Origin: Methyloversatilis sp.
Lineage (GTDB): Bacteria > Pseudomonadota > Gammaproteobacteria > Burkholderiales > Rhodocyclaceae
Reading direction: 5' to 3'
Assembly (NCBI GenBank): GCA_016791045.1
Contig: JAEUNO010000014.1
Coordinates: 1 to 64,000 of the forward strand
Length of the DNA stretch: 64,000 nt
Positions within the stretch are counted from its first letter, which is position 1; every line of letters begins with the position of its first letter. The notes below the pieces were generated by a model that worked only from the letters and a program-made list of their open reading frames with translations, was not told the origin of the DNA and did not search any database. The position numbers and the translations under genes were made by a program. Shown here one piece after another: positions 4,646 through 18,888 of the stretch.

Positions 4646-4663
4646 CCCGCTCCCGTCCGATAC

Positions 4664-4697
4664 AAAGGCCCGTCGGTGCATGCCGGCGGGCCTTTTT
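4664..4697. terminator. Bidirectional terminator between chemoreceptor and cytochrome gene
   Basis: AGGCCCGTCGG pairs with CCGGCGGGCCT across a six-base loop and is followed by five T residues on the plus strand. It sits between convergent genes and could serve both. Confidence 0.75.
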
Positions 4698-4726
4698 CCT
4701 TGTCGGCGCCCCTTTGCCGGGGCCGC

Positions 4727-5212
4727 TCAGCGGCTGCGCGAATCGACGTAGGTCTTGATGGCCCACACGGCTTCCTGCTTCAGGATGCCGTCCCATGCGG
4801 GCATGTGTTCGACACCCAGAATGTATTTGCCCTGCTTCACCGTGGTCACGAAATAGTGATCGACATCGGCCAGGCAGCGCGTCTTCAGCGCCTCGTCCTG
4901 CACCTTCCTGCAGTAGCGCTGCAACCTGCGCAGCGGCGGGGCAGGGTGGCCCTTGGCATTCATGTCCGGGCCATGGCATTTCGAACAGGTTTCGTTGTAC
5001 AGCGTGCGCCCGACCGCGGCGATCGTCTCGTCGTCACGATAAGGGTTGGCGTCGCGCCACGCGTCGCCCAGTGCAGGCAGCGACGAGGTGTCGGTCAGCG
5101 GCGCCGGCGGGCGCTCCGCGAGAGCGGCACCCGCAAGCAGGAAGAGCGCAGTGGCGAGCAGCGGTGCGAACATCGGGGCCAGCAGTCGGTATGTCATGTC
5201 GGGTCTCGGCAT
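4727..5212 (-). CDS. Periplasmic c-type cytochrome, PedF/cytochrome c-550-like
   Basis: This is a small single-haem cytochrome that probably takes electrons from the nearby PQQ dehydrogenase and passes them to the respiratory chain. The product (161 residues, or 156 from the second Met at 5197) has an export signal ending ALAERPP and one haem-binding site, CSKCH. A later methionine in HMPAWDGILKQEAVWAI is a candidate axial ligand. It closely resembles the cytochrome at 14294, sharing the DANPYRDD/KENPYRGD and final WAIKTYVDSR/WAIRSYLDTR blocks, so the two are paralogues. It lies 12 bases after the pentapeptide gene and probably belongs to the same transcript. Neither candidate start has a strong ribosome site. 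Confidence 0.85.
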   Translation of the reverse strand: MPRPDMTYRLLAPMFAPLLATALFLLAGAALAERPPAPLTDTSSLPALGDAWRDANPYRDDETIAAVGRTLYNETCSKCHGPDMNAKGHPAPPLRRLQRYCRKVQDEALKTRCLADVDHYFVTTVKQGKYILGVEHMPAWDGILKQEAVWAIKTYVDSRSR

Positions 5213-5224
5213 CGTTGATCGGGC

Positions 5225-5824
5225 TTACCAGTCCACCGGACAGCCGTCGCAGCCTTCGAAGCTCACGTTGAGGAACACGGCAAAGCGGGTGAAGCAGTTC
5301 TTCATGACGGCGTTGCGGAAGTCGGCTTCCTGGAACTTGGTTTCGTGCATGTTCACGTCGATCAGCCGGGCGCCGTTCAGCCGCACGTGGGTGGCGCGGG
5401 CGGCTTCCATGTTCGCCATCGACAGGTCGGCATTGCTGAGGTCGGCGCGGAACATGCGCGCGAACTCGAGATCGGTGGCAATGAGCCGGGCGCCGCGCAG
5501 CGACGCGGCCGGGATGTTCGCCTTCTGTACCTTCGCAGCGCTCAGATCGGCGCCGTCCAGCATGGCGCCTGCCAGATTGGCACTGCGCAGGTCGGCACGC
5601 ACCAGTTTTGCACCCGTCAGATCGGCGCCCGCGAGATCGCGCAGCGAAAGGTCGGCGTGACTGAGATCGACGCCGGGGCAGCGGGTGTAGGGCCAGATGG
5701 GGCAGCCATTGATGACCAGCACTTCTTCATGTGCGCTTTCGCCGGGCGGCGCATCGACCGCCTGGGTTGGACCGGTCAGGCTGCCAGGCAGTACAAGGAG
5801 GGCGAGCATGCGCAACAGCTTCAT
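5225..5824 (-). CDS. Exported pentapeptide-repeat protein
   Basis: The 199-residue product starts with a signal peptide (MKLLRMLALLVLPGSLTG) and then carries about 20 pentapeptide repeats of the A(D/N)LXX type, for example ADLSLRDLAGADLTGAKLV, which would fold as a right-handed beta-helix. The N-terminal part contains INGCPIWPYTRCPG and the C-terminal end CDGCP, so the mature protein has several cysteines. It lies between a PQQ dehydrogenase and its likely cytochrome. As I recall, pentapeptide genes also sit near quinoprotein alcohol dehydrogenases in Pseudomonas; the role is unknown. The ATG at 5824 is chosen because the signal peptide begins there; upstream codons look non-coding. Confidence 0.85.
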   Translation of the reverse strand: MKLLRMLALLVLPGSLTGPTQAVDAPPGESAHEEVLVINGCPIWPYTRCPGVDLSHADLSLRDLAGADLTGAKLVRADLRSANLAGAMLDGADLSAAKVQKANIPAASLRGARLIATDLEFARMFRADLSNADLSMANMEAARATHVRLNGARLIDVNMHETKFQEADFRNAVMKNCFTRFAVFLNVSFEGCDGCPVDW

Positions 5825-5961
5825 GGGCGTATCCCGAAAAGAATCCTGATCGTCACGGTCCCGGGTGCGACGGGCGCTGCCCGGGTGACTTCGACGGGTA
5901 GTCCAGCGGAGGAGTGGCCGCTGTTTTCCCGGGTTCGGACGCGACGACCAGGAACAAGGAA

Positions 5962-5985
5962 GCGGGCCGCCGAACGACGGCCCGC
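5962..5985 (-). terminator. Hairpin downstream of the calcium-type PQQ dehydrogenase
   Basis: GCGGGCCG pairs with CGGCCCGC around an eight-base loop, and the minus strand continues TTCCTTGTT. It lies between the dehydrogenase and the pentapeptide gene, so it may terminate or reduce transcription there. Confidence 0.6.
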
Positions 5986-6023
5986 CTGAGGAGGACACAA
6001 CGGGGCGCAGCGGCCCCGCTACA

Positions 6024-7886
6024 TCAGCGTTTCGGCAGCTTGAAGGCCCAGAAGGAGCCGCCCTGATTCACCTGCTTGGTCAGTTCGGCCATGTCGCCAC
6101 CCCACAGCGGCACGGCGCCACCGTAGCCGGATGCGATGCCGATGTACTGTTCGCCGTCCTGTTCCCACGTGATGGGGACCGAAACGACGCCGGAACCGGT
6201 CTGGAATTTCCAGACTTCCTTGCCGGTTTTCGCGTCGAAGGCCTTCACGTAGCCATCCGACGTACCCGTGAACAACAGGCCGCCGGCAGTGGTCAGCGTA
6301 CCGGCCCACAGCGGGAACTGCTCCTTGTGTTCCCAGGCGATCTTGCCGGTCTTCGGGTCGATCGCACGCAGGATCCCCACGTGATCGTCGAACAGCTTCT
6401 TGATGCGGAAGCCCTGGCCAAGGTAAGCCGCGCCTGCCTTGTAGGTGACGTTCTCCGCCCAGTAGTCCATCGCCCAGTGGTTGCCCGGAATGTAGAACAG
6501 CTCGGTCGCCGGGCTGTACGACATCGGCATCCAGTTGGTGCCGCCGAGGAAGGGCGGTGACACGAAAATGCTTTCGCCCTTCTCTTCACCGGCCTTCGGC
6601 TTCGGCGGGTACTGGCTTTCGACCACATTGGGCATGCCGGTCTTCAGGTCGAAGCCCTTGGTCCAGGTGATGCCATCGACGAATGGCCAGGCGCCGATCA
6701 GCGCGGACTGCTTCCACGGGTAGCCGGCGCCGGTGGCGAGCTTTTCGCGGTCGGTCACGAAGAAGTAGCCGTTGCGGTCGGCGTGCGCCGATGCCTTCAC
6801 CAGCTTGCCGGTCTTCGGGTCCTTGTATTCGAACAGCAGCACGGAATTGTTGCCGGAGAAGTCCCAGGCGTCATTCGGCGTATGCGAGAAGAAGCCCTTC
6901 AGTTCGCCGCTCGATGCATCGACGTAGGCCTGGCCGGACGTGAACAGGCTGGGCCATTTGGACGGGCTGTCGCCTTCCTTCGTGCGCTTCCAGGTGTTCC
7001 ACGGCGCCGGATTGCCGGTACCGATCACGACCATGTTCTGTTCGACGTCGAACGAGGCGGTCTGCCAGGGGGCTCCACCGCCATGACTCCAGGCTTCGAC
7101 CTTGCCGGTCGGCGAGCTGGGGTCATCCGGCCAGCTGGGTGCCTTGGCGTCACCGGTCGGCGTGCTGTCCTTGCCATTCAGGCGGCCCATGTGGCCTTCG
7201 ACCATCGGGCGTGCCCAGATTTCCTCGCCGGTATCGACGTCGCGGGCAAACAGATAGCCGATCACGCCGAATTCGTCGCCCGACGAGCCATGCACCAGCA
7301 TCACGCGGCCGCTCTTCTGGTCCTTCACGACAAACGGCGCGCCGGTCATCGTGTAGCCGACCTTGTGGTCGCCCCACTTCTTCGACCAGACGACCTTGCC
7401 CGTGTCCTTGTTCAGCGCGACCATGCCGGCGTCCAGCGTGCCGAAGTACACCTTGTCGCCGTAGATGGCGGCGCCGCGATTGACCACATCGCAGCACGGG
7501 CGGATGTCGTCGGGCAGGCGGTGCTCATAGGTCCACAGCCGCTTGCCGGTCTTCGCTTCGACGGCATACATGCGCGAGTACGAACCGGTGATGTAGATGA
7601 CGCCGTCGTGCACCAGCGCCTGCCCCTGCTGGCCACGCTGCTTTTCGCCGCCGAAGGAGTAGGACCAGGCGGGGGAGAGCGCCGCTACGGTTTTCGTGTT
7701 GATCTGCTTCAGCGGGCTGTGACGCTGGGCCTTCATGCCGAGGCCGTAGGTCAGTACGTCGCCGGTCGTCTTGTCATCGTTGACGATGTCTTCCCAGCTC
7801 ACCGTCTTTGCGGCGTGGGCCGGGCTGGCCAGCAGCGCGCCGAGCGCGATGCAAAGTGCCGGGTTCTTCAGTGAAAACGTTTTCAT
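6024..7886 (-). CDS. exaA: PQQ-dependent alcohol dehydrogenase, calcium-type (ExaA/PedE-like quinoprotein)
   Basis: This periplasmic quinoprotein oxidises a primary alcohol to the aldehyde and passes electrons to cytochrome c. The 620-residue product has a signal peptide ending SPAHAAKT and the eight-bladed propeller repeats of the family (DXKTGK...W). Visible active-site features are adjacent cysteines C131-C132 in PCCDVVNRG, candidate metal ligands E205 (SSGDEFGVIG) and N292 (GTGNPAPWN), and the catalytic aspartate D342 in TPNDAWDFSGNN. The residue two after D342 is Ser344, as in calcium-dependent ExaA/PedE; lanthanide enzymes have Asp there. The start at 7886 is supported by GAGGAG upstream. 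Substrate (ethanol, methanol or other) cannot be read from the sequence. Confidence 0.93.
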   Translation of the reverse strand: MKTFSLKNPALCIALGALLASPAHAAKTVSWEDIVNDDKTTGDVLTYGLGMKAQRHSPLKQINTKTVAALSPAWSYSFGGEKQRGQQGQALVHDGVIYITGSYSRMYAVEAKTGKRLWTYEHRLPDDIRPCCDVVNRGAAIYGDKVYFGTLDAGMVALNKDTGKVVWSKKWGDHKVGYTMTGAPFVVKDQKSGRVMLVHGSSGDEFGVIGYLFARDVDTGEEIWARPMVEGHMGRLNGKDSTPTGDAKAPSWPDDPSSPTGKVEAWSHGGGAPWQTASFDVEQNMVVIGTGNPAPWNTWKRTKEGDSPSKWPSLFTSGQAYVDASSGELKGFFSHTPNDAWDFSGNNSVLLFEYKDPKTGKLVKASAHADRNGYFFVTDREKLATGAGYPWKQSALIGAWPFVDGITWTKGFDLKTGMPNVVESQYPPKPKAGEEKGESIFVSPPFLGGTNWMPMSYSPATELFYIPGNHWAMDYWAENVTYKAGAAYLGQGFRIKKLFDDHVGILRAIDPKTGKIAWEHKEQFPLWAGTLTTAGGLLFTGTSDGYVKAFDAKTGKEVWKFQTGSGVVSVPITWEQDGEQYIGIASGYGGAVPLWGGDMAELTKQVNQGGSFWAFKLPKR

Positions 7887-8153
7887 CCTGACTCCTCTTT
7901 CAGTGTGATGTGTCGTGTCGGCGTCGCGGCTCGCCATGGCATCCGGGTGACAGGCTGCGACACGCACTGCAGCGTAGGCAGGCCAGTCACAAGCTGTTGG
8001 TAGAAAATTCCCGCTGAAGCAGGGAGTCGGTCCCGGTTTTGGCGGGTGTCCCATGGTTGAACACCTTGATGTCGCGACCTGAGACAGCCGCATGGCGTTA
8101 AGCTCGCGCCCTGGGGTACCGGCGGCTCATGTGCCGCAGGCCGATGCAGTCGA

Positions 8154-8168
8154 TGGCCCTCGACTTGC
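8154..8168 (+). promoter_or_regulatory. Sigma-54 promoter of the SoxYZ-like/hydrolase operon
   Basis: TGGCCCTCGACTTGC has GG (8155-8156) and GC (8167-8168) separated by exactly 10 bases, the required -24/-12 spacing, and matches TGGCAC-N5-TTGC except at one position. It lies 57 bases before the start codon at 8225. The rest of the 338-bp divergent gap (7887-8224) shows no gene, and no equivalent site was seen facing the minus-strand dehydrogenase. Confidence 0.75.
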
Positions 8169-8224
8169 TTGCCGGAACAGGGCGCTGTACTGACACAAAG
8201 ATCGAAAACGAGGAGTGGATCCCG

Positions 8225-8974
8225 ATGAAGCAGTTATTGATGGCCTTCGCGCTGGCGCTGGGGCTGTGCGCAGCCGCGGGCGCAGCCGACCCGCTGGGTT
8301 CGTCGCGCTGGCCCGACCTGCAGCGCGAATATGCCGGCAATGCGCCGGTCACCTTCGATTCGCGGGTCGAGGTGCTGGCACCCAAGGTGGCTGAGGATTC
8401 GATGAACGTGCCGGTCACGATCAAATTCCGGAACCTGCCTGATGTGAAGCGGGTGCTGGTCGTCGCGGACTTCAACCCCATCGTCAAGGTGCTGGACTAC
8501 CAGCCGCTGCTGGCGCAACCCGGTCTGTCCTTCCGCATCAAGCTGCAGCAGGCCAGCCCGATCCGTGCGCTGGTGCAGACCGGTGACGGCAAGTGGTATG
8601 CGGGCGGCGTGTGGGTCGATGCGGCAGGCGGCGGCTGCACGGCGCCCAGCACGGGTCGCAGCGCGCCGGACTGGACCAGCACGCTGAACCAGGTGCAGGC
8701 GCGTGTGTTCCACGACGGCCAGAACCAGCGCGTGCGGCTGCGCATCATGCATCCGATGGATACCGGCCTCGCGCCGGGCATTCCGGCCTTCTACATTGAA
8801 CAGCTGGCGGTCGAGGACGCCAGTGGCGAGGCCATGCTGCGCATGGAAACCTTCGAACCGCTGAGCGAAAATCCGGTGTTCTCGTTCGACCTGCCGGATA
8901 CCGGCAAGGCGGCGTTGCGCGTGGTCGGGCGCGACAACAACGGCAACCGCATCGACGCGATGGTGCAGCCATGA
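8225..8974 (+). CDS. Quinoprotein dehydrogenase-associated SoxYZ-like carrier protein
   Basis: This periplasmic protein fuses a SoxY-like and a SoxZ-like domain and occurs next to PQQ dehydrogenases. The 249-residue product has a signal peptide (QLLMAFALALGLCAAAGA), a SoxY-like half ending in the glycine-rich cysteine motif AAGGGCTAPS, where SoxY carries its substrate thiol, and a SoxZ-like half (RLRIMHPMDTGL). In sulfur oxidation SoxYZ carries a covalently bound intermediate; here the cargo is unknown. GAGGAG precedes the start at 8225. It overlaps the hydrolase gene by four bases (ATGA) and stands behind a sigma-54-type promoter. P. putida pedH has, from memory, the same two genes beside it. 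Confidence 0.85.
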   Translation: MKQLLMAFALALGLCAAAGAADPLGSSRWPDLQREYAGNAPVTFDSRVEVLAPKVAEDSMNVPVTIKFRNLPDVKRVLVVADFNPIVKVLDYQPLLAQPGLSFRIKLQQASPIRALVQTGDGKWYAGGVWVDAAGGGCTAPSTGRSAPDWTSTLNQVQARVFHDGQNQRVRLRIMHPMDTGLAPGIPAFYIEQLAVEDASGEAMLRMETFEPLSENPVFSFDLPDTGKAALRVVGRDNNGNRIDAMVQP

Positions 8975-9942
8975 TCGGGCGCTTCCTGCTCGCCCTGGTG
9001 CTTGCCGGTGGAGCGCTGCTGGCGCAGGCGGCCGATCCAGCTGTCACGGACCGTTTCGATTACGGCCTCGTGCCGCAGAAGATCGCCGACAACAGCTGGG
9101 CGTTCATCGGTCGCACCGAGGACATCACCCGCGCCAATGGCGGCAACATCGTCAACACCGCCTTCGTCGTGACCGCCGACGGCGTCGTGGTGATCGACAC
9201 CGGTCCGTCGCGCCGCTACGGCGAGCAGATGCGGGCGGCGATCGCCCGCGTGACCGACCGTCCGGTCATCCGGGTGTTCAACACGCATCAGCACCCGGAT
9301 CACTTCCTCGGCAACCAGGCCTTCGCAGGCGTGCCCACAGCGGCGCTGCCCGCCGCCCAGGCCGGCATGCGCGAGCAGGGCGGGGCATTCGCCGACAATA
9401 TGTACCGCATGGCCGGTGACTGGCTGGCAGGTACCGAAGTCAGCGTGGCGGATCAGGCGGCACAGGCCGGGCGACAGACGATAGGCGGACACGACTTCGA
9501 GTTGATCGCGCTGGAAGGCCATACCGGCGGCGATCTGGCGGTTTTTGACCGCACCACCGGTGTGCTGTACGCCGGAGACCTGATCTTCCTCGACCGCGCA
9601 CCGACCACGCCGCACGCCTCGCTCGGCCACTGGCGCACGGCGCTCGACACGCTGGCCGCACTCCCGGTGAAGCGCACCCTGCCCGGTCATGGTCCGGTGC
9701 ATGACGACAGTCGCGGCATCGGCCAGACGCGCGACTGGCTCGATTGGCTCGACGACACACTCAATCGCGCGGCGACCAGCGGCATGGACATGGCGGAAGT
9801 GATGGTGCTGCCGCTGCCCGAGCGCTTTGCCGGGATGCCGCTGGCGCGCAGCGAATTCGAACGCTCGGTGACGCACCTGTACAGCCGCTACGAACAGCAG
9901 ACACTGAACACTGCCGCACCCTCCCGGTTGAAACAAAAATGA
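8971..9942 (+). CDS. Quinoprotein relay system zinc metallohydrolase (metallo-beta-lactamase fold)
   Basis: This periplasmic metallo-beta-lactamase-fold hydrolase is related to SoxH. The 323-residue product has a signal peptide (RFLLALVLAGGALLAQAAD) and the metal-binding series HQHPDH, then GHTGGD, GDLIFLDRAP and LPGHGPVHDD. It is co-transcribed with the SoxYZ-like carrier (ATGA overlap), so it probably acts on whatever the carrier holds. The reaction is not known. The pair sits directly upstream of the lanthanide-type dehydrogenase, separated from it by a hairpin and that gene's own sigma-54 promoter. Confidence 0.85.
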   Translation: MIGRFLLALVLAGGALLAQAADPAVTDRFDYGLVPQKIADNSWAFIGRTEDITRANGGNIVNTAFVVTADGVVVIDTGPSRRYGEQMRAAIARVTDRPVIRVFNTHQHPDHFLGNQAFAGVPTAALPAAQAGMREQGGAFADNMYRMAGDWLAGTEVSVADQAAQAGRQTIGGHDFELIALEGHTGGDLAVFDRTTGVLYAGDLIFLDRAPTTPHASLGHWRTALDTLAALPVKRTLPGHGPVHDDSRGIGQTRDWLDWLDDTLNRAATSGMDMAEVMVLPLPERFAGMPLARSEFERSVTHLYSRYEQQTLNTAAPSRLKQK

Positions 9943-9957
9943 ACACCTGACCTGTTT

Positions 9958-9980
9958 CGCGCCGCTCGCAAGGCGGCGCG
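9958..9980 (+). terminator. Hairpin after the metallohydrolase gene
   Basis: CGCGCCGC pairs with GCGGCGCG around a seven-base loop, 15 bases past the stop codon. No T run follows, so termination may be partial. Confidence 0.5.
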
Positions 9981-10005
9981 ACCGTATTTCCGCCTCGTTT
10001 GTACT

Positions 10006-10020
10006 TGGCCCGCTTCTTGC
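10006..10020 (+). promoter_or_regulatory. Sigma-54 promoter of the lanthanide-type PQQ dehydrogenase
   Basis: TGGCCCGCTTCTTGC has GG at 10007-10008 and GC at 10019-10020 with the required 10-base gap, and matches the consensus TGGCACG-N4-TTGC except at one base. It ends 70 bases before the start codon at 10091. Confidence 0.85.
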
Positions 10021-10090
10021 GATCCCCTGTCGCCGATCTAGGGAAAGCATCCCGGCAATCAAGAGACAAACTCACCACTGAGGAGGAAGT

Positions 10091-11845
10091 ATGAAAGGTT
10101 TGCGTACCACGACGCTGTCCGGCGTCCTGCTGTCTGCATTCGCTGCGCTGGCTGCGCCGCAGGTCATGGCCGGCGTCACCGACAAGGACATCGAAGCCGA
10201 CGGCAAGACCACGACCAGCATCCTGTCGTGGGGCATGGGCACGGAAGGCCAGCGCTACAGCCCGCTCGACAAGATCAACGTCAAGAACGTCAAGAACCTG
10301 GTTCCGGCCTGGTCCTTCTCCTTCGGTGGTGAAAAGCAGCGCGGCCAGGAGTCGCAGCCGCTGATCATCAACGGCAAGATGTACGTGACCGGTTCCTACT
10401 CGCGCCTGTACGCGCTGGACGCCAAGACCGGCACCAAGCTGTGGCAGTACGAACACCGTCTGCCGGACGGCATCATGCCGTGTTGCGACGTGGTGAATCG
10501 CGGCGCCGCCGCCTATGGCGACCTGGTCATTTTCAGCACGCTGGACGCGCAGCTGGTCGCGCTTGACCAGAACACCGGCAAGGTCGTGTGGAAGGAAAAG
10601 ATCGACGACTACCAGGCGGGTTACTCGAACACCGCCGCGCCGATCATCGCCAAGGGCCTGCTGCTGACCGGTGTGTCCGGTGGCGAATTCGGCGTCATCG
10701 GCCGCGTCGAAGCGCGCGACCCGAAGACCGGCAAGCTGGTGTGGGTCCGCCCGACCGTCGAAGGCCACATGGGCTACAAGTACGACGCGGCCGGCAACAA
10801 GACCGAAAACGGCATCAGCGGCACGCTGAACGCCACCTGGACCGGCGACCTGTGGAAGACCGGCGGCGCAGCCACCTGGCTGGGCGGCAGCTACGATTCG
10901 AAGACCGGTCTGGCCTATTTCGGTACCGGCAACCCGGCACCGTGGAACAGCCACCTGCGTCCCGGCGACAACCTGTTCTCCTGCTCGACCGTGGCCATCG
11001 ATGTGGCCACCGGCCAGATCAAGTGGCACTTCCAGGGCACGCCGAACGACGGCTGGGACTACGACGGTGTGAACGAATTCGTCACCTTCGACATGAACGG
11101 CAAGCGGATGGGCGGCAAGGCCGACCGCAACGGCTTCTTCTACGTGCTGGATGCCAGCACCGGCAAGTTCGAGCGCGGCTTCCCGTTCGTGAACAAGATC
11201 ACCTGGGCCAAGGGCCTGGACGCCGAAGGCAAGCCGATTTTCGATCCGGCCAACCGCCCCGGCGATCCGGCCAAGGGTGCTGACGGCAAGAAGGGCGAAT
11301 CCGTGTTCTCGGTACCGTCCTTCCTGGGCGGCAAGAACCAGATGCCGATGGCCTACAGCCCGGATACCGGCCTGTTCTACGTGCCGGCCAACGAGTGGGG
11401 CATGGAAATCTGGAACGAGCCGATCACCTACAAGAAGGGTGCGGCCTACCTGGGCGCCGGCTTCACGATCAAGACCATCGAGGACAAGTACATCGGCGCC
11501 CTGCGTGCGGTGGATCCGAAGACCGGCAAGATCGTGTGGGAAGTCACCAACAATGCGCCGCTTTGGGGTGGTGTGATGACAACCAAGGGCGGCCTGGTGT
11601 TCTGGGGCACCCCGGAAGGCTTCCTGAAGGCAGCTGACGCGAAGACGGGCAAGGAAGTGTGGTCATTCCAGACCGGCACCGGCGTTGTGGCGCCCCCGAT
11701 CACGTGGGAACAGGACGGCGAGCAGTACGTCGCGGTCGCGACCGGCTGGGGCGGCGCAGTGCCGCTGTGGGGCGGCGACGTCGCCAAGAAGGTGAACTAC
11801 CTGAATCAGGGTGGTTCGATGTGGGTGTTCAAGCTGCACAAGTAA
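10091..11845 (+). CDS. PQQ-dependent alcohol dehydrogenase with lanthanide-type active site (PedH/XoxF-like signature)
   Basis: This second periplasmic quinoprotein alcohol dehydrogenase has 584 residues and a signal peptide ending PQVMAGVT. It shares the architecture of the enzyme at 6024, including C131-C132 (PCCDVVNRG), E199 (SGGEFGVIG) and N281 (GTGNPAPWN). The key difference is at the catalytic aspartate: [12 protein letters not shown] places D323 two residues before a second aspartate, D325. That extra acidic ligand is the established marker of lanthanide-dependent enzymes such as XoxF and PedH. It also lacks the insert found in the other enzyme around residues 235-265. A GAGGAGG site precedes ATG 10091, with a sigma-54-type promoter further upstream. 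Metal use and substrate are inferred. Confidence 0.92.
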
Positions 11846-11858
11846 TCAGCAGGACGGA

Positions 11859-11885
11859 CCAATGCAGGCACGACGCTTGCATTGG
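11859..11885 (+). other. Hairpin in the 3-prime region of the dehydrogenase transcript
   Basis: CCAATGCA pairs with TGCATTGG around an 11-base loop, 13 bases after the stop. It has no T run and lies upstream of the real terminator; it could stabilise the 3-prime end of the mRNA. Confidence 0.45.
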
Positions 11886-11950
11886 TTCCTGTGCCGTGTC
11901 TGTTTCAGTGTTTTCAGGCGCGGCATCTCTTCAGCAGGACATGGCTCTTT

Positions 11951-11978
11951 AGCCGGCTCACAAGGCCGGCTTTTTTTT
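11951..11978 (+). terminator. Rho-independent terminator of the lanthanide-type dehydrogenase
   Basis: AGCCGGC pairs with GCCGGCT around a short loop and is followed by a run of eight T residues. It separates this gene from the convergent regulator. Confidence 0.85.
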
Positions 11979-12006
11979 GCCTGTGATCTGCCGCCCGACT
12001 TGCCTG

Positions 12007-13968
12007 TCAACCTTCCTTGAGCTTGCGGTAGAGCGTGGTGCGGCTGATCCCGAGTTCGCGCGCCGTCGCCGCGACGTTGCCGTCGTTGCGCGACAGCGAC
12101 TCGCGGATGGCGCGCAGGGTCAGGCTGTCCAGATCGCAGGGCGCCGCGACGCCCTGCGCGCCCTCGGGCGCGAGCCCGCTGCCGACAGGCTGATGGTCCA
12201 GTTCATCGATGAAGTCATCCGGCAGGTGAGGCCGGCCGATCACGCCATCGTCGGCCGCCATGACGCCGGCGGTGCGCAGCAGATTGGCCAGCTGACGCAT
12301 GTTGCCGGGCCACGGATGGCGCTCGAACAGCGCGAGCACCTCGTCATCGATGCTCAGGCCGCGTGGAATCGACGACTCGCTGTCGAGAATGCGCTGCACC
12401 AGCGCACGCAGATCACTGCGTTCGCGCAGCGGCGGCAGCATGACGGTCAGCCCGTTGAGCCGGTAGTAGAGGTCGGCGCGGAACATGCCCTGGGCGACCA
12501 GATCGCGCAGCTTGCGGTGGGTGGCGCAGATGATGGACAGATCGACCGGCGTGGCGCGGCCACTGCCCAGCGGCACCACATTGCGTTCCTGCAGCACGCG
12601 CAGCAGGCGTGCCTGCAGCGCGAGCGGCATGTCGCCGATCTCGTCCAGGAACAGTGTGCCGCCATCGGCCTGCATGATGCGGCCAGCGTAGCCTTTGCGC
12701 CGGGCACCGGTGAACGCGCCATCTTCATAGCCGAACAGCTCCGATTCGATCAGGCCATCCGGAATCGCGGCGCAATTGACCGCGACAAAGTTCTGGTCGC
12801 GACGCGGGCCTTCGTCGTGAATGGCGCGCGCCAGCAGTTCCTTGCCGGTACCGGTCTCGCCCTGGATCAGCACCGGGATGTCTCGGCCGAGCACGCGTTT
12901 GACCTTTTCCACGACCGCATTCATCTGTGCGTCGCCGGTGCTCAGCCGCTCCAGGCCGCGGTTGTCATCGGCCGGCAGGCGCGGCGCCGTACCGGCGTCG
13001 TGACGCGGAACGTCCATGCTGAACACGCGTGCCGGCGGGCGTGCCTGCACCCCCGGCCGCGGCCGCCCGAACAGTGTGCGGCCGCCGAACAATCGCAGTT
13101 CGATGATGTCGGTGCCCCGCATCAGCGGGTCGTACAGCGCGCTCAGCGACTTGTCGAACATCGACGAAAAGCTGTGATTCATCAATTCCGCATGGCTGCG
13201 GCCGATCAGCCGGCAGGCGCTGCGATTGGCCGACAGCACGCGGCCTTCCTGGTCAAACGCGAGCAGCGCCTCGAACACCGTGCCGATCAATTCGTGCTGA
13301 ACATGGCAGTGCAGCAGAAAACCTTCCGGAAAGGCATGCGCGAACAACTGATTCTCGATCGTCTGAACAGCCAGATTGATCAGCGCCAGACTGTGGTGCG
13401 ACGGCGTACGCGAATCGCCGGTCACATCGAGCACGCCCAGCATGCGGCTGCACGGATCGAAAATCGGCGATGCCGAGCAACTCAGGAAGTGATTGGCGGA
13501 AAAGAAATGCTGCGAGCCGTGCACCGACACCGGCGCCTGTTCGACCAGCGCCGTGCCGATCGCATTGGTGCCCTTGCTTTCTTCCGACCACTCCACGCCC
13601 GGCGACAGCGCGACTTTCGACGCGCGGTCGAGAAAGCTCTGGTCGCCGACCGAATGGATGATGAACCCGGACGCGTTGGTCAGCACGATCATGCTGCCGG
13701 AGCGGGCGATCTGTGCATACAGGCCGTTCATGACCGGCGCCGCATGCTTGAGCAGGCATTCGTTGCGCTCGCGTTCGGTCAGCAGAACGTCGCGGCGCGC
13801 GCGCTCGACCTCCTTGCTGCAGCTGTCGGCGTCGAGGCCGCGACTGATGCAGCGGCTCCAGGATGTCTCGATCAGGGTCGGCAGCACGCCCGCGGGGACT
13901 TCGCCCTCGCTGCGCATGATTTCGTGGGCCTGCGCACTGCGCACGCCGTCAGTCGTTGTCAAATCCAT
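12007..13968 (-). CDS. Sigma-54-dependent transcriptional activator, AcoR-like (GAF, AAA+, Fis-type HTH)
   Basis: This enhancer-binding protein would activate sigma-54 promoters. The 653-residue product has an AcoR-like N-terminal sensory region with a GAF-type domain (SKGTNAIGTALVEQ, HFFSANHFLSCS), a PAS-like stretch, then the AAA+ domain with Walker A GETGTGKE, the sigma-54 contact loop YEDGAFTGARR and Walker B GGTLFLDEIGD, and a C-terminal Fis-type helix-turn-helix (NVAATARELGISRTTLYRKL). The start at 13968 is favoured over 13992 because GGAGGAG lies just upstream. With sigma-54-type promoters before three genes around it, it is the natural candidate to control the alcohol-oxidation island. 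Its signal is unknown; the GAF domain suggests a small molecule. Confidence 0.9.
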   Translation of the reverse strand: MDLTTTDGVRSAQAHEIMRSEGEVPAGVLPTLIETSWSRCISRGLDADSCSKEVERARRDVLLTERERNECLLKHAAPVMNGLYAQIARSGSMIVLTNASGFIIHSVGDQSFLDRASKVALSPGVEWSEESKGTNAIGTALVEQAPVSVHGSQHFFSANHFLSCSASPIFDPCSRMLGVLDVTGDSRTPSHHSLALINLAVQTIENQLFAHAFPEGFLLHCHVQHELIGTVFEALLAFDQEGRVLSANRSACRLIGRSHAELMNHSFSSMFDKSLSALYDPLMRGTDIIELRLFGGRTLFGRPRPGVQARPPARVFSMDVPRHDAGTAPRLPADDNRGLERLSTGDAQMNAVVEKVKRVLGRDIPVLIQGETGTGKELLARAIHDEGPRRDQNFVAVNCAAIPDGLIESELFGYEDGAFTGARRKGYAGRIMQADGGTLFLDEIGDMPLALQARLLRVLQERNVVPLGSGRATPVDLSIICATHRKLRDLVAQGMFRADLYYRLNGLTVMLPPLRERSDLRALVQRILDSESSIPRGLSIDDEVLALFERHPWPGNMRQLANLLRTAGVMAADDGVIGRPHLPDDFIDELDHQPVGSGLAPEGAQGVAAPCDLDSLTLRAIRESLSRNDGNVAATARELGISRTTLYRKLKEG

Positions 13969-14224
13969 GCTCTCCTCCGAACCCTGAACCACGCGCGATG
14001 GCCGGTGATGCCGACTCTGGCGTGTGACGCGAAGGGCGACCGATAGTGCCCCGCAAACCGTTCATGCAAGATAGTAAGGCCTGGAGCCCCTTGCACCTAG
14101 GGCGTACGCGCAGATGTGCTCCTGGGGCATCATGTCGTCCGGCTGTATGCGGACCCGCCGCGCCGCGCGTTGTCGTCGTTGCCGCACCCGGATATTGCCG
14201 GTCGGCAAACCGCGAAGTTTAACG

Positions 14225-14239
14225 TGGCACGCATCCTGC
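14225..14239 (+). promoter_or_regulatory. Sigma-54 promoter of the second cytochrome c gene
   Basis: TGGCACGCATCCTGC has GG at 14226-14227 and GC at 14238-14239 with a 10-base gap; the -24 half is a perfect TGGCACG. It ends 55 bases before the start codon at 14294. The rest of the 325-bp gap facing the regulator shows no gene. Confidence 0.8.
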
Positions 14240-14293
14240 TAACGAGTTGGGGTCGCATATTGTGTTGCAGTAACGGATATTTACGGAGGAGTG

Positions 14294-14734
14294 ATGAAAG
14301 CAGATAACCGGATTTTCAAGGCAACGCTGGTCTGTACCGCGTTGATTACGTTGGGCGCGGCGACCACGATGCGCGTCGAGGCACACGGCGATGTGGTGCC
14401 GCAGTCGGTCGATGTCAGTGCGCTCAAGCCGCTCGGCGCGGAGTGGAAGAAGGAAAACCCGTACCGCGGCGACAAGGAAGCCATCCGCATCGGTACCTCG
14501 GCCTACAACCAGAACTGCGCGCGCTGCCACGGACTGGAAGCCATCAGCGGCGGTATCGCACCGGATCTCCGGATGTTGCCGCTCGACGCCGAAACGGACG
14601 ATTACTTCATCAACACGGTCCGCCGCGGACGCGTGCGCAACGGCGCGGTTTATATGCCGCCGTTCGAGGGCATGATGGCGCAGGAAGCCATGTGGGCCAT
14701 CCGCAGTTATCTCGACACGCGCTACGAACCGTAA
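14294..14734 (+). CDS. Periplasmic c-type cytochrome, PedF-like paralogue
   Basis: This single-haem cytochrome is a probable electron acceptor for the quinoprotein dehydrogenases. The 146-residue product has an export signal ending RVEAHGDV, the haem motif CARCH, and a later block MPPFEGMMAQEAMWAIRSYL carrying the likely methionine ligand. It is a paralogue of the cytochrome at 4727. ATG 14294 is chosen over GTG 14291 because GGAGGA at 14285-14290 is better spaced for it. Its sigma-54-type promoter suggests regulation with the lanthanide-type dehydrogenase, while the other copy lies beside the calcium-type enzyme, so each dehydrogenase may have its own cytochrome (inference). Confidence 0.87.
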   Translation: MKADNRIFKATLVCTALITLGAATTMRVEAHGDVVPQSVDVSALKPLGAEWKKENPYRGDKEAIRIGTSAYNQNCARCHGLEAISGGIAPDLRMLPLDAETDDYFINTVRRGRVRNGAVYMPPFEGMMAQEAMWAIRSYLDTRYEP

Positions 14735-14741
14735 GCGCCGA

Positions 14742-14762
14742 TGCAACGCTGTCTGCGTTGCA
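14742..14762 (+). terminator. Short hairpin after the cytochrome gene
   Basis: TGCAACGC pairs with GCGTTGCA around a five-base loop, eight bases after the stop. There is no T run, so it may be a weak terminator or a structural element. Confidence 0.4.
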
Positions 14763-14764
14763 GG

Positions 14765-14797: not shown

Positions 14798-14957
14798 CAT
14801 TGAACACACCCGCCGCACTCAATCCCCTCGTTGACTCGCCGAAAGGCCTCCCGCGAGGAAAATCCGGGCGCTAAAATATGAAGCGTTTTTCATAGCCGGC
14901 GCACCCGTGCGTCGAACCACACAAAGATTTGCCCAGAATGTGGAGGAGCGACTGAAC

Positions 14958-15428
14958 ATGCAGAAATCACTACATATAGACCCCTCGAAATGCACCAGCT
15001 GCCTGCAGTGCGAAATGGCCTGTTCATTCGAGAACTACGGGGTCTTCAACAATTCGCTGTCGCGCATCAAGGTGTTCGAGTTCCACCACACCGGCGCCAA
15101 GGTGCCTTACACCTGTACGCAGTGTGACGAAGCCTGGTGCATGCACGCCTGTCCGGTCGAGGCGATCAAGCTCGACAAGACCAATGGCGCCAAGGTCGTG
15201 CTCGAGGATGTCTGTGTGGGCTGCAAGGTGTGCACGATCGCCTGTCCGTTCGGCACCGTGAATTACGTCGCCGAAACCGGCAAGGTCCAGAAGTGCGATC
15301 TGTGCGGTGGCGACCCGGCCTGTGCCGAAGCCTGTCCGACCGGTGCCATCACCTATGTCGATGCCAACTGGACCGGGCTGGAACGCATGCGCCAGTGGGC
15401 CGACAAGCTCGGCAACCCGTCTGCCTGA
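14958..15428 (+). CDS. aorA: Ferredoxin-like four-cluster iron-sulfur subunit of aldehyde oxidoreductase (AorA-like)
   Basis: This polyferredoxin subunit would move electrons between the tungsten subunit and the FAD subunit. The 156-residue product has 16 cysteines in four groups that would bind four [4Fe-4S] clusters: C12-X2-C-X2-C-X3-C at the start, CTQCDEAWCMHACP, CVGCKVCTIACP, and CDLCGGDPACAEACP. Its size and spacing match AorA of the bacterial AorABC enzyme from Aromatoleum. ATG 14958 follows AGGAG at 14944-14948. The catalytic gene starts 20 bases downstream. Confidence 0.9.
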   Translation: MQKSLHIDPSKCTSCLQCEMACSFENYGVFNNSLSRIKVFEFHHTGAKVPYTCTQCDEAWCMHACPVEAIKLDKTNGAKVVLEDVCVGCKVCTIACPFGTVNYVAETGKVQKCDLCGGDPACAEACPTGAITYVDANWTGLERMRQWADKLGNPSA

Positions 15429-15448: not shown

Positions 15449-17296
15449 ATGGCATGGACCCGTAAAATCCTCCGCGTAAATCTGACCGACCGCACCTGTA
15501 CGAGCGAGCCGCTCAACATGGAGTGGGCGCACGACTATCTGGGTCAGCGCGGTCTGGCGACGAAATACCTGGCGTCGGAAATCGATCCGAAGGTCGATCC
15601 GCTGTCGCCGGACAACAAGATCATCTGGGCGACCGGCCCGCTGACCGGCACGATGGCCTCCACCGGCGGCCGCTATTCCGTCGTCACCAAGGGCCCGCTG
15701 ACCGGCGCGATCGCCTGTTCGAACTCCGGCGGCTACTTCGGCGCCGAACTGAAGTTCGCCGGCTGGGACATGGTCATCATCGAGGGCCGTGCGTCAAGCC
15801 CGGTCTATCTGTCGATCGAGAACGACAAGGTCGAACTGCGCGATGCGTCCCATCTGTGGGGCAAGACCGTGTGGGAAACCGAAGGCCAGATCAAGTCGGA
15901 ACACCAGGACCCTCAGATCCGCGTGTCCTGCATCGGCCGCACGGGCGAGAACGGAGTGCTGTACGCCGCCATCGTCAATGACCTGCATCGTGCCGCCGGC
16001 CGCTCGGGCGTCGGCGCCGTCGCCGGGTCGAAGAACCTGAAGGCGATCGCGGTGCGCGGCACGCTCGGCGTCGGCAACATTGCCAACCCGAAGGAGTTCA
16101 TGAAGGTCACCTTCGAGAAGAAGAAGATCCTCAAGGAAAACGCGGTCACCGGTCAGGGACTGCCGACCTACGGCACGCAGGTGCTGATGAACGTGATCAA
16201 CGAAATCGGCGCCATGCCGACGCGCAACCACAAGGATGTGCAGTTCGAAGGCGCGCGCAAGATTTCGGCCGAAGCGATGCACGAGCCGCGCGAAAGCGAC
16301 GGCAAGGCGCAATTGATCAACAACCAGGCCTGTTTCGGCTGCACCATCGCCTGTGGCCGCATCTCCAAGATCGACGCCACGCACTACACCGTGGTCAACA
16401 GCCCGAAGTACTGGGGCGCATCCGGTGGTCTGGAATACGAAGCGGCGTGGGCGCTGGGCTGTGCCAATGGCGTCGATGATCTCGATGCGCTGCAGTACGC
16501 CACCATGCTCTGCAACGAAGACGGCTTCGACCCGATTTCCTTCGGCGCGACCATTGGTGCGGTGATGGAACTGTACGAAATGGGTGTGCTGACGAAGGAA
16601 GAGATCGGCATCGAAGCGCCTTTTGGATCCGCCAAGGCGCTGACCTACCTGACCGAAATCACTGCGCGCGGCGAAGGCTTCGGCAAGATCATCGGCCTCG
16701 GTTCGAAGCGTCTGTGCGAAAAGTACGGCCATCCGGAGCTGTCGATGTCGGTCAAGGGCCAGGAATTCCCGGCCTACGATGCGCGCGCGGTACAGGGCAT
16801 GGGCCTGACCTACGCAACATCGAACCGCGGTGCCTGCCACCTGCGTTCGTACACGATTTCGTCCGAAGTGCTGGGCATTCCGGTCAAGACCGATCCGCTG
16901 ACCACCGAAGGCAAGCCGGCCCTGGTCAAGGCGTTCCAGGACGCGACAGCGGTGGTCGATTCGACCGGCCTGTGCGTATTCACGACCTTCGCCTGGGCGC
17001 TTTCGGACATCCAGCCGCAGTTGCAGGCGGCGTGCGAAGGCGATTGGTCGATGGAAAAGCTGGACCTGATGGGCGAGCGCATCTGGAACATGGAGCGCCA
17101 GTTCAACAACGCAGCCGGCTTCACCCGCAAGGACGATGACCTGCCGGCCCGCCTGAAGACGGAAGCCGCCAAGGTCGGTCCGGCCAAGGGCCTGGTATCG
17201 GGTATCGACAAGATGATTCCCGAGTACTACGACCTGCGTGGCTGGGATACGGAAGGCCGTCCGACCGCCGAGACCGTCGCCCGCCTGGGCCTGTGA
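15449..17296 (+). CDS. aorB: Tungsten-type aldehyde:ferredoxin oxidoreductase catalytic subunit (AorB-like)
   Basis: This enzyme oxidises aldehydes to carboxylic acids using a tungsten or molybdenum bis-pyranopterin cofactor and one [4Fe-4S] cluster, in the cytoplasm. The 615-residue product is the usual AOR length. The N-terminal domain carries the typical LGQRGLATKYLASEI and WATGPLTGTMASTGGRYSVV blocks. The cluster motif is C295-X2-C298-X3-C302 (ACFGCTIACG) with C509 (STGLCVF) as likely fourth ligand. Its place next to alcohol dehydrogenases suggests it clears the aldehyde product. Metal identity (W rather than Mo) is inferred from the family. Confidence 0.93.
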   Translation: MAWTRKILRVNLTDRTCTSEPLNMEWAHDYLGQRGLATKYLASEIDPKVDPLSPDNKIIWATGPLTGTMASTGGRYSVVTKGPLTGAIACSNSGGYFGAELKFAGWDMVIIEGRASSPVYLSIENDKVELRDASHLWGKTVWETEGQIKSEHQDPQIRVSCIGRTGENGVLYAAIVNDLHRAAGRSGVGAVAGSKNLKAIAVRGTLGVGNIANPKEFMKVTFEKKKILKENAVTGQGLPTYGTQVLMNVINEIGAMPTRNHKDVQFEGARKISAEAMHEPRESDGKAQLINNQACFGCTIACGRISKIDATHYTVVNSPKYWGASGGLEYEAAWALGCANGVDDLDALQYATMLCNEDGFDPISFGATIGAVMELYEMGVLTKEEIGIEAPFGSAKALTYLTEITARGEGFGKIIGLGSKRLCEKYGHPELSMSVKGQEFPAYDARAVQGMGLTYATSNRGACHLRSYTISSEVLGIPVKTDPLTTEGKPALVKAFQDATAVVDSTGLCVFTTFAWALSDIQPQLQAACEGDWSMEKLDLMGERIWNMERQFNNAAGFTRKDDDLPARLKTEAAKVGPAKGLVSGIDKMIPEYYDLRGWDTEGRPTAETVARLGL

Positions 17297-17359: not shown

Positions 17360-18631
17360 ATGAAACACGTGATCATCGGCAACGGCCCGGCCGGCGTGGT
17401 GGCCGCAGAGGCGCTGCGCCGCGCGGACGCTTCGGCCGACATCGTCATGATCGGCGATGAACCTGAGCGGCCGTATTCGCGCATGGCCATTCCCTATCTG
17501 CTGGTCGGCAACATCGAAGAGAAGGGCACCTGGCTGCGCAAGACCGACGGCCACTTCGAGTCGCTGCGCATTCGCGAAGTGCTCGGGCGCGCCAAGTCGG
17601 TCGACACCGTCAGCCGTACGGTTCATCTCGAGGACGGCACCGCACTGCCTTACGACAGGCTGCTGATCTGCACCGGGTCGCACCCGCTTCGCCTGCCCGT
17701 ACCGGGCATCGATTCGCCCAATGTTCACAGCTGCTGGACGCTTGAAGATGCGCGCCACATCGCCGCCAAGGCAAAGAAGGGTGCGCGCGTGCTGCAGATC
17801 GGCGCCGGCTTCATCGGCTGCATCATCATGGAGGCGCTGGCCTCGCGCGGCGTGAAGCTCGACATCGTCGAAATGGGCGACCGCATGGTGCCGCGCATGA
17901 TGACGTCCAAGGCGGGCAGCATGATCGCGCGCTGGGTCGAACAGAAGGGTGTGACCGTCCATACGAAGGCGCGTGTCACGGCGATCCGTCAGGACGGCGA
18001 TGCCCTGGTCGCCACGCTCGGTGACGGCAAGGAAGTGGTGGCCGACCTGATCATCGCAGCCGCAGGCGTCAAGCCCAATGTCGCTTTCCTCGAAGGCAGC
18101 GGCGTCGCCTGCGCGACCGGCATCCTGATCGACGAACGATGCGAAACCAATGTGCCGGGCGTGTTTGCCGCGGGCGACGTGGCGGAAGCGATCGATTTCT
18201 CGACCGGTGAACGCCTGGTCAACGCCATTCAGCCGAACGCAGTGGATCAGGGCCGCATCGCGGCCATGAACATGGCCGGTCGCAGCACGCAATCGCAGGG
18301 CACCATGGCGATCAACGTACTCGACACGCTGGGTCTGATCTCCGCATCCTTCGGCCAGTGGTGGGGTGCCGACGGTGGCGATGCGGTCGAAATGATCGAC
18401 GACAAGCGCTTCCGCTACATCAGCCTGCAGTTCAAGGAAGATGTACTGGTCGGCGCGACGTCGATCGGCCTGACCGACCACGTCGGTGTGCTGCGCGGTC
18501 TGATCCAGACGCGCACGCCGCTCGGTACCTGGAAGGAACGCCTGATGCAGGACCCGCTGCGCGTCATGGAAGCCTATCTGTCGAGCGCCCAGGCGCAGAG
18601 CGCTGCGCCGATCGCCGGGGTTGCGCACTGA
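17360..18631 (+). CDS. aorC: FAD-dependent NAD(P)-linked oxidoreductase subunit (AorC-like)
   Basis: This pyridine-nucleotide-disulfide-type flavoprotein probably transfers electrons between AorA and NAD. The 423-residue product has an N-terminal FAD-binding fold (KHVIIGNGPAGVVAAEALRR), a second nucleotide-binding fold (VLQIGAGFIGCIIMEALASR) and the late FAD motif TNVPGVFAAGDVAEA. It lacks the redox-active CXXXXC pair of true disulfide reductases, as expected for a ferredoxin or rubredoxin reductase-like member. It follows aorB by 63 bases and matches the third subunit of AorABC. Confidence 0.87.
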   Translation: MKHVIIGNGPAGVVAAEALRRADASADIVMIGDEPERPYSRMAIPYLLVGNIEEKGTWLRKTDGHFESLRIREVLGRAKSVDTVSRTVHLEDGTALPYDRLLICTGSHPLRLPVPGIDSPNVHSCWTLEDARHIAAKAKKGARVLQIGAGFIGCIIMEALASRGVKLDIVEMGDRMVPRMMTSKAGSMIARWVEQKGVTVHTKARVTAIRQDGDALVATLGDGKEVVADLIIAAAGVKPNVAFLEGSGVACATGILIDERCETNVPGVFAAGDVAEAIDFSTGERLVNAIQPNAVDQGRIAAMNMAGRSTQSQGTMAINVLDTLGLISASFGQWWGADGGDAVEMIDDKRFRYISLQFKEDVLVGATSIGLTDHVGVLRGLIQTRTPLGTWKERLMQDPLRVMEAYLSSAQAQSAAPIAGVAH

Positions 18632-18633
18632 CG

Positions 18634-18888
18634 ATGCGGGTGACGCTGAAGCTCTATGCCTCGCTGTCGGATCATCTGCCGGACGAGGCGAAGCGCACCA
18701 ACGAGTGGCCGATGGAGGTCGCCGACGGCACCACCGTCGGCGACCTGATCGATCGCCATCAGCTGCCCAAGCGGCTGGTTCATCTGGTGCTGGTGAATGG
18801 TCATTACATTCCGCCAGCCAGCCGCGAAGCGCATCCGCTGGTCGAGAATGACGTACTGGCCATCTGGCCGCCGGTGGCCGGAGGGTGA
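18634..18888 (+). CDS. MoaD/ThiS-like ubiquitin-fold sulfur carrier
   Basis: This 84-residue protein of the MoaD/ThiS family ends in the Gly-Gly tail needed for thiocarboxylation (WPPVAGG). MoaD-type proteins donate sulfur to the dithiolene group of the pyranopterin that holds tungsten or molybdenum. It starts two bases after aorC and probably serves cofactor assembly for this AOR. Motifs along the fold include LKLYASLSDHLP, GTTVGDLIDRHQLP, HLVLVNGHYIPP and ENDVLAIWPP. Confidence 0.88.
   Translation: MRVTLKLYASLSDHLPDEAKRTNEWPMEVADGTTVGDLIDRHQLPKRLVHLVLVNGHYIPPASREAHPLVENDVLAIWPPVAGG

Follow-up and report, generated by a model that had tools for sequence, protein, structure and literature searches.

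The stretch of DNA analysed here (bases 1 to 64,000 of contig C45, called the window below) comes from Methyloversatilis, a genus that uses methanol, and carries, on opposite strands, two alcohol dehydrogenases that depend on pyrroloquinoline quinone (PQQ), one of the calcium (Ca) type and one of the lanthanide (Ln) type. The evidence fits a rare-earth switch with inverse control of the two genes, sensing of PQQ or of an alcohol being possible as well. We lean slightly towards reading the region as a two-metal alcohol oxidation locus, in which a substrate-driven Ln module under sigma-54 and a Ca cassette would be joined by a shared, lanthanide-sensing operator. The genome of origin, G000, comprises 3.5 Mb in 47 contigs, and open reading frames (ORFs) were studied in the first 22 kb of the window; G designates a genome, C a contig of G000 and L a locus stretch. 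The nearest named relatives are two Methyloversatilis metagenome-assembled genomes, with 98% identity across the Ln-type enzyme.

The two enzymes are 51% identical, and both match NCBIfam model TIGR03075 (696 bits for the Ca-type and 753 bits for the Ln-type enzyme, cut-off 480). In an alignment of 124 sequences, the Cys-Cys pair, the Glu, the Asn, the catalytic Asp and the Arg were kept in both. The diagnostic column holds Ser in the Ca-type enzyme and in ExaA, and Asp in the Ln-type enzyme, in PedH and in both XoxF chains, the corresponding motifs being WDFSG (Asp342, Ser344) and WDYDG (Asp323, Asp325). Over seven checked columns, the Ca-type enzyme agreed with ExaA at 7/7, and the Ln-type enzyme with PedH and the two XoxF chains at 7/7. 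The closest solved structure is 1flg (ExaA, 984 bits) for the former; for the latter, it is 6zcv and 6zcw (843 and 842 bits), labelled 'quinoprotein ethanol dehydrogenase', which we take to be P. putida PedH. The Ln-type ORF encodes 584 amino acids (aa). For the Ca-type ORF, the first ATG gives 8093-6024; a likelier start lies at 7886 (MKTFSLKN..., signal-peptide-like) and yields the 620 aa in which Asp342 and Ser344 are numbered.

Phylogeny was examined with a quick tree search (no bootstrap, 71 of the 124 collected rows, long branches warned of among the outgroups). The 10 Ser enzymes, ExaA among them, formed a single clade (SH-aLRT, an approximate likelihood ratio test, 100), and the PedH-type rows, all with Asp and with PedH inside, formed another group of 54 rows (SH-aLRT 88), apart from ExaA and XoxF. 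As the tree, the ligand columns and the solved-structure matches agree, the sequence-based typing is confirmed: the Ca-type enzyme is of the ExaA/PedE type and the Ln-type enzyme of the PedH/ExaF type. The initial annotation, which had read both genes, their common active-site features, the WDFSG/WDYDG difference and the metal types from the sequence, and had suggested placing the pair in a PQQ dehydrogenase phylogeny, was thus right about the enzymes. A recent duplication with loss of Asp in one copy is ruled out by the separate Ser and Asp groups, because each of them holds a Pseudomonas reference. Metal choice is here read from a single column, which would leave room for a Ln-type enzyme that uses calcium in vivo despite its second Asp; however, every ligand column fits PedH and the XoxF chains, the enzyme groups with PedH, and the diagnostic Asp is present in 80/80 named relatives, which makes this very improbable indeed.

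The enzyme pair is not new, contrary to what the initial annotation had implied. Its counterparts in M. universalis FAM5 are Mdh2 and XoxF3, at a locus (METUNv1_590040-590051) that comprises a tungsten aldehyde ferredoxin oxidoreductase, XoxJ3, XoxG3, XoxF3 and Mdh2 with its cytochrome (PMC5023235). Methyloversatilis strains are also described as each encoding two ExaF/PedH copies and a Ca-dependent ExaA/PedE/Mdh2 (PMC6028718). Mapped by order and name, the FAM5 locus equals the genus locus in order, with Ald as AorB, XoxJ3 as the PedG-like protein, XoxG3 as PedF, XoxF3 as the Ln-type and Mdh2 as the Ca-type enzyme. Unlike FAM5, the window has no PedG/XoxJ-like gene between pedF and aorA; this gene is present in 6/13 genus genomes. 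According to earlier work cited in PMC5023235, M. universalis cannot do without a PQQ ethanol dehydrogenase homologue when it uses C1 and C2 alcohols. On methanol, Mdh2 is listed at 48,100 and XoxF3 at 1,214, and the aldehyde oxidoreductase (AOR) and xoxF3G3J3 are 1.6-3 fold up relative to methylamine, with last-column values of 0.05 to 0.62 (PMC5023235). What may be new is the regulatory wiring, i.e. the sigma-54 promoters and a palindrome, GGGAN5TCCC, shared by the two dehydrogenase genes.

We scored as a sigma-54 box any -24/-12 match reaching at least 13.5 of 15 within 250 nt upstream of a gene. ORF calling in the scripts relied on a simple rule for third positions, and kinship is ignored in all counts across relatives and in the Fisher tests. 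Such a box (TGGCCCGCTTCTTGCG in the window) precedes the Ln-type gene in 68 of 79 named loci, one of the 80 being too short, and its letters TGGCCCG-TT-TTGC are unvaried in 13/13 genus genomes. The background was 37/1010 for the upstreams of other ORFs, 54/4611 for random stretches and 28/3950 for shuffles. Among the other genes of the locus, boxes were found at pedF (22/27), the SoxYZ-like gene (7/26), the activator (2/25) and AorA (1/11), and at none of five Ca-type genes (L009, L010, L011, L050 and L064; best scores 11.5, 11.5, 11.5, 12.5 and 11.5). A sigma-70 consensus promoter for the Ca-type gene was sought in 4600-15000, and none was found there. G000 has a second PedH-type (Ln-type) gene, on C41, and this copy also has a sigma-54 box. 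The box is absent upstream of six alphaproteobacterial Ln-type genes (L139, L140, L205-L208) and of the relatives nearest to P. putida PedH (L195, L196); other class-level relatives are divided, with L187, L190, L191 and L193 at 13.5 or more, L188 at 13.0, and L189, L192, L194, L197 and L198 at 12.5 or less.

The genome has rpoN, and the gene adjoining the Ln-type gene encodes a sigma-54-dependent activator in which the Walker A motif, the GAFTGA loop and the Fis-type helix-turn-helix (HTH) are all present. This gene is found in 13/13 genus genomes, at 82-100% identity. Its product has no strongly hydrophobic span, and its N-terminal part resembles DhaR; to judge from the GAF/PAS make-up and the hydropathy, it most likely responds to an alcohol or an aldehyde. 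We set aside, without rejecting it, the idea that the activator is itself the lanthanide sensor, as domains and hydropathy give no pointer to it. An inverted-repeat search for an upstream activator site at the soxYZ, Ln-type, pedF and C41 promoters revealed none in common. The initial annotation had expected a type of regulator different from that of P. putida, and indeed a sigma-54 activator, rather than a pair resembling PedS2/PedR2, adjoins the dehydrogenase genes; probing the whole 64-kb window with an Aquabacterium kinase and regulator (E<=1e-5) detected no two-component pair. Sigma-54 control of such genes has a precedent in Azospirillum, where a sigma-54-dependent PQQ alcohol dehydrogenase is under LuxR-type control, a combination likewise proposed here. 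In the 250 nt scanned, no box precedes two further Ln-type genes of Azospirillum (L139, L206). The Methyloversatilis locus differs from the precedent in having an AAA+ activator gene next to the dehydrogenase gene.

The palindrome GGGAN5TCCC occurs in exact form twice in the window, at 8022 upstream of the Ca-type gene and at 10041 in the Ln leader. Shuffled windows gave a mean of 0.95 copies (range 0-4), so that the count is ordinary and the weight rests on placing and conservation. The leader site is exact in 10/11 genus genomes with a Ca-type gene, and has 7/8 letters in G011, G005 and G007. In the 300 nt upstream of Ca/ExaA-type genes, the exact palindrome was detected in 16/24 cases (9/11 in Methyloversatilis, 7/13 elsewhere), and at least 7/8 letters in 23/24; the exact form precedes 17/1001 other ORFs and 14/79 Ln-type genes. 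Several Ca-type upstreams outside the genus have paired copies 22 bp apart, exact or with 7/8 letters (L138, L202, L254-L257). As a possible signature of the Ca gene, we tried a double operator of 34 letters whose two halves stand exactly 9 nt apart; the window scored only 12 of 15, and 7/79 Ln-type upstreams reached 12-13. The single 13-letter palindrome was adopted because this longer form failed.

We then considered where else the palindrome stands. In the own genome, the exact single site was sought in selected stretches (219 kb) and the tandem form genome-wide. Tandem sites numbered 27 in the 13 Methyloversatilis genomes, with 1-3 in each of the 13, compared to 0 for a reversed-pattern control. 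All 27 lie upstream of just three genes: 12 precede a TonB receptor, 10 a two-PepSY protein and 5 a second TonB receptor, which adjoins a kinase/LuxR pair. In G000, the first TonB receptor is separated from pqqE by about 2 kb that hold two PEP-CTERM genes; on C29 (L267:8271-12691), two PEP-CTERM proteins were noticed directly after the receptor that bears the operator close to the pqq genes. Both receptors fall far under every NCBIfam cut-off, with weak matches to PqqU and siderophore models. Exact sites also accompany kinase/LuxR pairs. On C27, at least one lies between a HisKA_3 kinase/LuxR pair and the next TonB gene (13/13 genomes). On C42, one lies 60-76 nt upstream of the kinase of another pair (13/13; HAMP, HisKA_3 and GerE by Pfam). 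The C42 kinase is 37% identical to the kinase beside mxaF on C9, and an exact site stands between mxaF and that C9 kinase. As a side observation, the mxaFI methanol dehydrogenase operon is apparently split over the ends of C9 and C43 (L091/L092), with the motif WDYAG and MxaI recognized by Pfam MDH. The Aquabacterium response regulator was tried as an orthologue probe and matched many regulators per genus genome, at 26-48% identity; no single regulator orthologue can therefore be named.

The two-PepSY protein (C30) has 169 aa, two PepSY stretches and, by eye, a signal-peptide-like start. It is identical to PDB 9vy3 at 91/147 aligned residues (62%), an entry labelled only as a PepSY/peptidase M4 propeptide protein and which, at a guess, is LanP. 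LanP (lanpepsy) of Methylobacillus flagellatus is described as a lanthanide-binding protein of 19 kDa that resides in the periplasm and has two PepSY domains (PMC11845868). The C30 protein is likewise small, of periplasmic type and equipped with two PepSY domains; its gene lies outside the dehydrogenase locus, and, unlike that of LanP, its lanthanide binding is putative. The operator-bearing genes, i.e. the TonB receptors, the LanP-like protein and the LuxR-type two-component genes, would together form a candidate lanthanide regulon.

A mechanism can be proposed on this basis. The core module (SoxYZ-like carrier, hydrolase, Ln-type enzyme, PedF and AOR) would oxidise alcohols in the periplasm and the resulting aldehydes in the cytoplasm. 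It would be driven by sigma-54 and the adjacent activator, through which the substrate signal would enter, while the metal signal would come in through a LuxR-type regulator. At 8022, this regulator would activate the Ca-type gene from upstream, and at 10041 it would occlude the sigma-54 start of the Ln-type gene; such inverse control of the two genes is the logic known for PedR2. The same operator would control the TonB receptors and the LanP-like protein. The genes, the metal-ligand residues, the sigma-54 boxes and the palindrome with its places across the genus are read directly from the sequence. What we infer is that one of the LuxR-type regulators binds GGGAN5TCCC, with which sign it acts on each gene, that lanthanide is what it responds to, and which substrate the activator recognises. 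Taken as a whole, namely the palindrome as operator of a lanthanide-response regulator with a genus-wide regulon (TonB receptors, LanP-like protein, its own two-component genes), opposite effects on the two dehydrogenase genes, and substrate and metal read at one promoter, this reading has in our view about even chances. If it is true, a short DNA word recognised from sequence alone would reveal which genes make up a rare-earth regulon in a genus that can be cultured. Two TonB receptors and one binding protein would then become candidates for lanthanide uptake, and substrate and metal control would converge at a sigma-54 promoter. The choice between calcium and lanthanide dehydrogenases has been called unresolved even for PedE/PedH (PMC11845868).

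Several observations weigh against such a switch. An exact palindrome at most 75 nt past the sigma-54 box was found in only 9/69 Ln loci (shuffles 0.06%), and the palindrome also stands at loci without a Ca partner. Of the 80 named loci, all with the Ln-type gene, 50 were selected for a search of the complete genome and 49 were searched; a Ca-type gene was present in just 9 of these 49, four weaker matches being Asp-type; sigma-54 control is thus not tied to the switch. The post-box site was present in 3/9 Ca-positive and 3/40 Ca-negative of these genomes, a weak link. Three kinase/LuxR pairs (C27, C42, C9) are candidates, each with GGGAN5TCCC nearby. For the TonB receptor linked to the two-component pair, the best-scoring model is PqqU (122 bits, cut-off 1200), which makes PQQ uptake a live alternative. 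In M. flagellatus, the source of LanP, two two-component systems were unchanged in level with La (PMC11845868). In FAM5, growth on methanol instead of methylamine raised both Mdh2 (1.38 fold) and XoxF3 (1.84 fold) somewhat (last column 0.77 and 0.62), a comparison made without a lanthanide contrast; 'lanthan' and 'sigma' have 0 occurrences in PMC5023235.

The position of the site bears on the direction of control. Six of the nine Ln loci with a post-box palindrome have it 0-1 nt past the box (L028, L052, L056, L064, L083, L088), and the other three, L009-L011, 19-20 nt past it; in L013, L019 and L084 it is upstream of the box, as it is at the C41 copy, where it does not follow the box. This variation between lineages, together with the C41 arrangement, speaks for the opposite direction or for simple co-induction, where the regulator would activate all its targets and the Ln leader site would be an activator site or an RNA element. 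Yet activation by a protein placed over or just past the sigma-54 start would be difficult to explain, and the Ln-type promoter would already have an activator in the product of the adjoining gene. We regard co-induction as quite improbable.

Another explanation dispenses with a rare-earth switch: the two enzymes would be alcohol-induced isoenzymes, the sigma-54 activator would respond to alcohol or aldehyde, and the palindrome would serve a two-component system for alcohol, PQQ or siderophore, with targets whose link to lanthanides would be one of appearance. The GAF and PAS domains and the DhaR-like N-terminal part of the adjacent activator are in line with it, as are the weak PqqU and siderophore matches of the TonB receptors, the presence of GGGAN5TCCC ahead of ExaA-type genes in class-level relatives (L202, L203) and the occurrence of PedS2-PedR2 also where PedH is missing (PMC12997753, section 20). 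We nevertheless consider it unlikely, since the tandem accompanies, in 10 genomes, a two-PepSY protein that is built of the same domains as LanP and shares 62% identity with a PepSY protein of solved structure, and since PedS2/PedR2, the known switch, also employs a LuxR-type regulator with opposite effects on pedE and pedH.

Table 1. Features of the first part of the window.
Feature	Position	Strand	Remarks
c-type cytochrome, PedF/ExaB-like	4727..5212	-	third gene of Ca cassette; TIGR04494 97.8 bits, under cut-off 122
Pentapeptide-repeat protein, PedD-like	5225..5824	-	Pfam PF00805 94.8 bits
Ca-type PQQ alcohol dehydrogenase	6024..7886	-	ExaA/PedE clade; Mdh2 of M. universalis; Ser344
GGGAN5TCCC putative operator	8022..8034	.	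136-148 nt upstream of Ca-type gene
TGT-N11-ACA palindrome, copy 1	8047..8063	.	between Ca-type gene and SoxYZ-like gene
TGT-N11-ACA palindrome, copy 2	8070..8086	.	23 bp from copy 1
Sigma-54-type -24/-12 promoter candidate, SoxYZ-like/hydrolase genes	8154..8169	+	score 13.5 of 15
Quinoprotein-associated SoxYZ-like carrier	8225..8974	+	TIGR04557 231.6 bits, cut-off 140
Quinoprotein relay zinc metallohydrolase 1	8971..9942	+	TIGR04558 435.8 bits, cut-off 300
Sigma-54 -24/-12 promoter of Ln-type gene	10006..10021	+	TGGCCCGCTTCTTGCG
GGGAN5TCCC putative operator	10041..10053	.	Ln leader, ~20 nt past -12 box, just beyond predicted transcription start
Ln-type PQQ alcohol dehydrogenase	10091..11845	+	PedH/ExaF clade; XoxF3 of M. 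universalis; Asp323 and Asp325
Sigma-54-dependent activator	12007..13992	-	GAF, PAS, AAA+, Fis-type HTH; GAFTGA loop
Sigma-54 -24/-12 promoter of pedF	14225..14240	+	score 14 of 15
Cytochrome c-550 PedF	14294..14734	+	TIGR04494 206.8 bits, cut-off 122
AorA, Fe-S subunit of tungsten aldehyde oxidoreductase	14958..15428	+	several 4Fe-4S Pfam domains
AorB, tungsten catalytic subunit	15449..17296	+	closest solved 8c0z_A, 1083 bits
AorC, FAD/NAD subunit	17360..18631	+	closest solved 8c0z_E, 565 bits
AorD, 84-aa MoaD/ThiS-fold protein	18634..18888	+	Pfam ThiS 41.8 bits, cut-off 22.5
AorE candidate, small frame, 102 aa	18885..19193	+	reading frame only; no Pfam match

The locus comprises a minus-strand run in which the Ca-type enzyme, the PedD-like protein and the PedF-like cytochrome follow each other in the same direction, and a plus-strand series (SoxYZ-like, hydrolase, Ln-type; then PedF, AorA-D and a small frame up to 19193) interrupted by the activator on the minus strand (Table 1). 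The partner genes proposed at first are real, as the SoxYZ-like carrier (TIGR04557), the zinc hydrolase (TIGR04558) and PedF (TIGR04494) each exceed the model cut-off, and the parallel drawn with P. putida was matched by its ped cluster, which has the same accessory genes (PMC12997753). KT2440 likewise groups ExaA-type Ca and PedH-type Ln enzymes, PedF, the pentapeptide protein PedD, the SoxYZ-like carrier and the zinc hydrolase in one cluster. Control differs: KT2440 has the PedS2-PedR2 two-component system, whereas here LuxR-type systems would be implicated by the shared DNA site alone, and the Ln-type gene is under sigma-54 with an adjacent AAA+ activator. The two loci also differ in aldehyde oxidation, with tungsten AorABC here; a PedI-type aldehyde dehydrogenase was not noticed beside the locus.

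The core (SoxYZ-like, hydrolase, Ln-type, activator, pedF) was found in 13/13 Methyloversatilis genomes and the Ca cassette in 11/13; G005 and G007 gave no Ca-type gene in a genome-wide search. In 11/13 genomes, the PedF-like cytochrome at 4727-5212 adjoins the Ca-type gene, and a PedD-like gene also adjoins it in L050, L064 and L138. L009-L011 are Methyloversatilis and have the Ca-type gene. Outside the genus, among the 80 named loci, a Ca-type gene lay within the examined stretch only in L050 (Aquabacterium) and L064 (Piscinibacter sakaiensis); as many of the 80 stop at a contig edge, such linkage counts are lower bounds. Because the core is universal in the genus and the cassette is not, and is rare outside it, the Ca cassette, with its Ca-type enzyme, PedD-like protein and cytochrome, seems to be a removable addition to the Ln module. 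The cassettes of L050, L064 and plasmid L138 are accompanied by a kinase and a LuxR-type regulator (by Pfam for the L138 pair). At the cassette-less locus of G005 (L183, 9257-9376), a weak match (45%) to the cassette cytochrome, not seen at a stricter limit, was observed, hinting at loss of the cassette rather than later gain.

Two further repeats were recorded. The TGT-N11-ACA pair (spacing 23 bp) is present in 11/11 genus genomes with the Ca-type gene and in 0/2 without; it was rejected as the site of the sigma-54 activator, as it tracks the Ca-type gene and not the SoxYZ promoter. Between pedF and aorA, at 14773-14789, stands a perfect inverted repeat, TGTCCAGATTCTGGACA, and a similar TGTCCA...TGGACA repeat is listed in 13/13 genus loci.

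AOR genes stand at the locus in 12/13 Methyloversatilis genomes (G011 is without), and in the window AorA, AorB, AorC and AorD appear in that order, aorD having been established in the window only. The closest solved relative of AorB and AorC is the Aromatoleum aromaticum enzyme (8c0z), whose operon order, AorABCDE (PMC6365974), is matched by the window operon, with AorE as a candidate frame; unlike in Aromatoleum, the Methyloversatilis aor genes stand after pedF and the Ln-type dehydrogenase. A survey of 369 genomes of the class gave 14 that matched the Ln-type query, one of which (G131) did so only via a Ca-type gene, leaving 13 PedH-type genomes. AOR was found in 10/13 of these and in 38/356 others (Fisher p 1.2e-7, kinship ignored), or in 9/12 when the window's own genome was left out. 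At the 80 named loci, AorA or AorB was detected in 12 and AorB in 10. Two arrangements were seen. The genes follow pedF in L009-L011 and L035, and also in L017 and L019, where the locus stretch ends with AorA; they lie upstream on the opposite strand in L028, L045, L052, L053, L056 and L074. A literature keyword search, judged by title, found no paper pairing a tungsten AOR with a lanthanide/PQQ alcohol dehydrogenase. The recurrent coupling of the two enzymes would mean that alcohol is turned into acid with the help of two rare metals, which would be unusual.

G000 has other PQQ dehydrogenases. One, on C28 (L090:9662-11446), has WDYDG and Asp in place of Glu in a metal-ligand column, and is followed by a solute-binding gene and a gene that looks, by eye, like a cytochrome. 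Another, on C13 (L093:1913-3595), is without the Cys-Cys pair and adjoins a large AcoR-like regulator and acetoin-type dehydrogenase genes, both named by eye.

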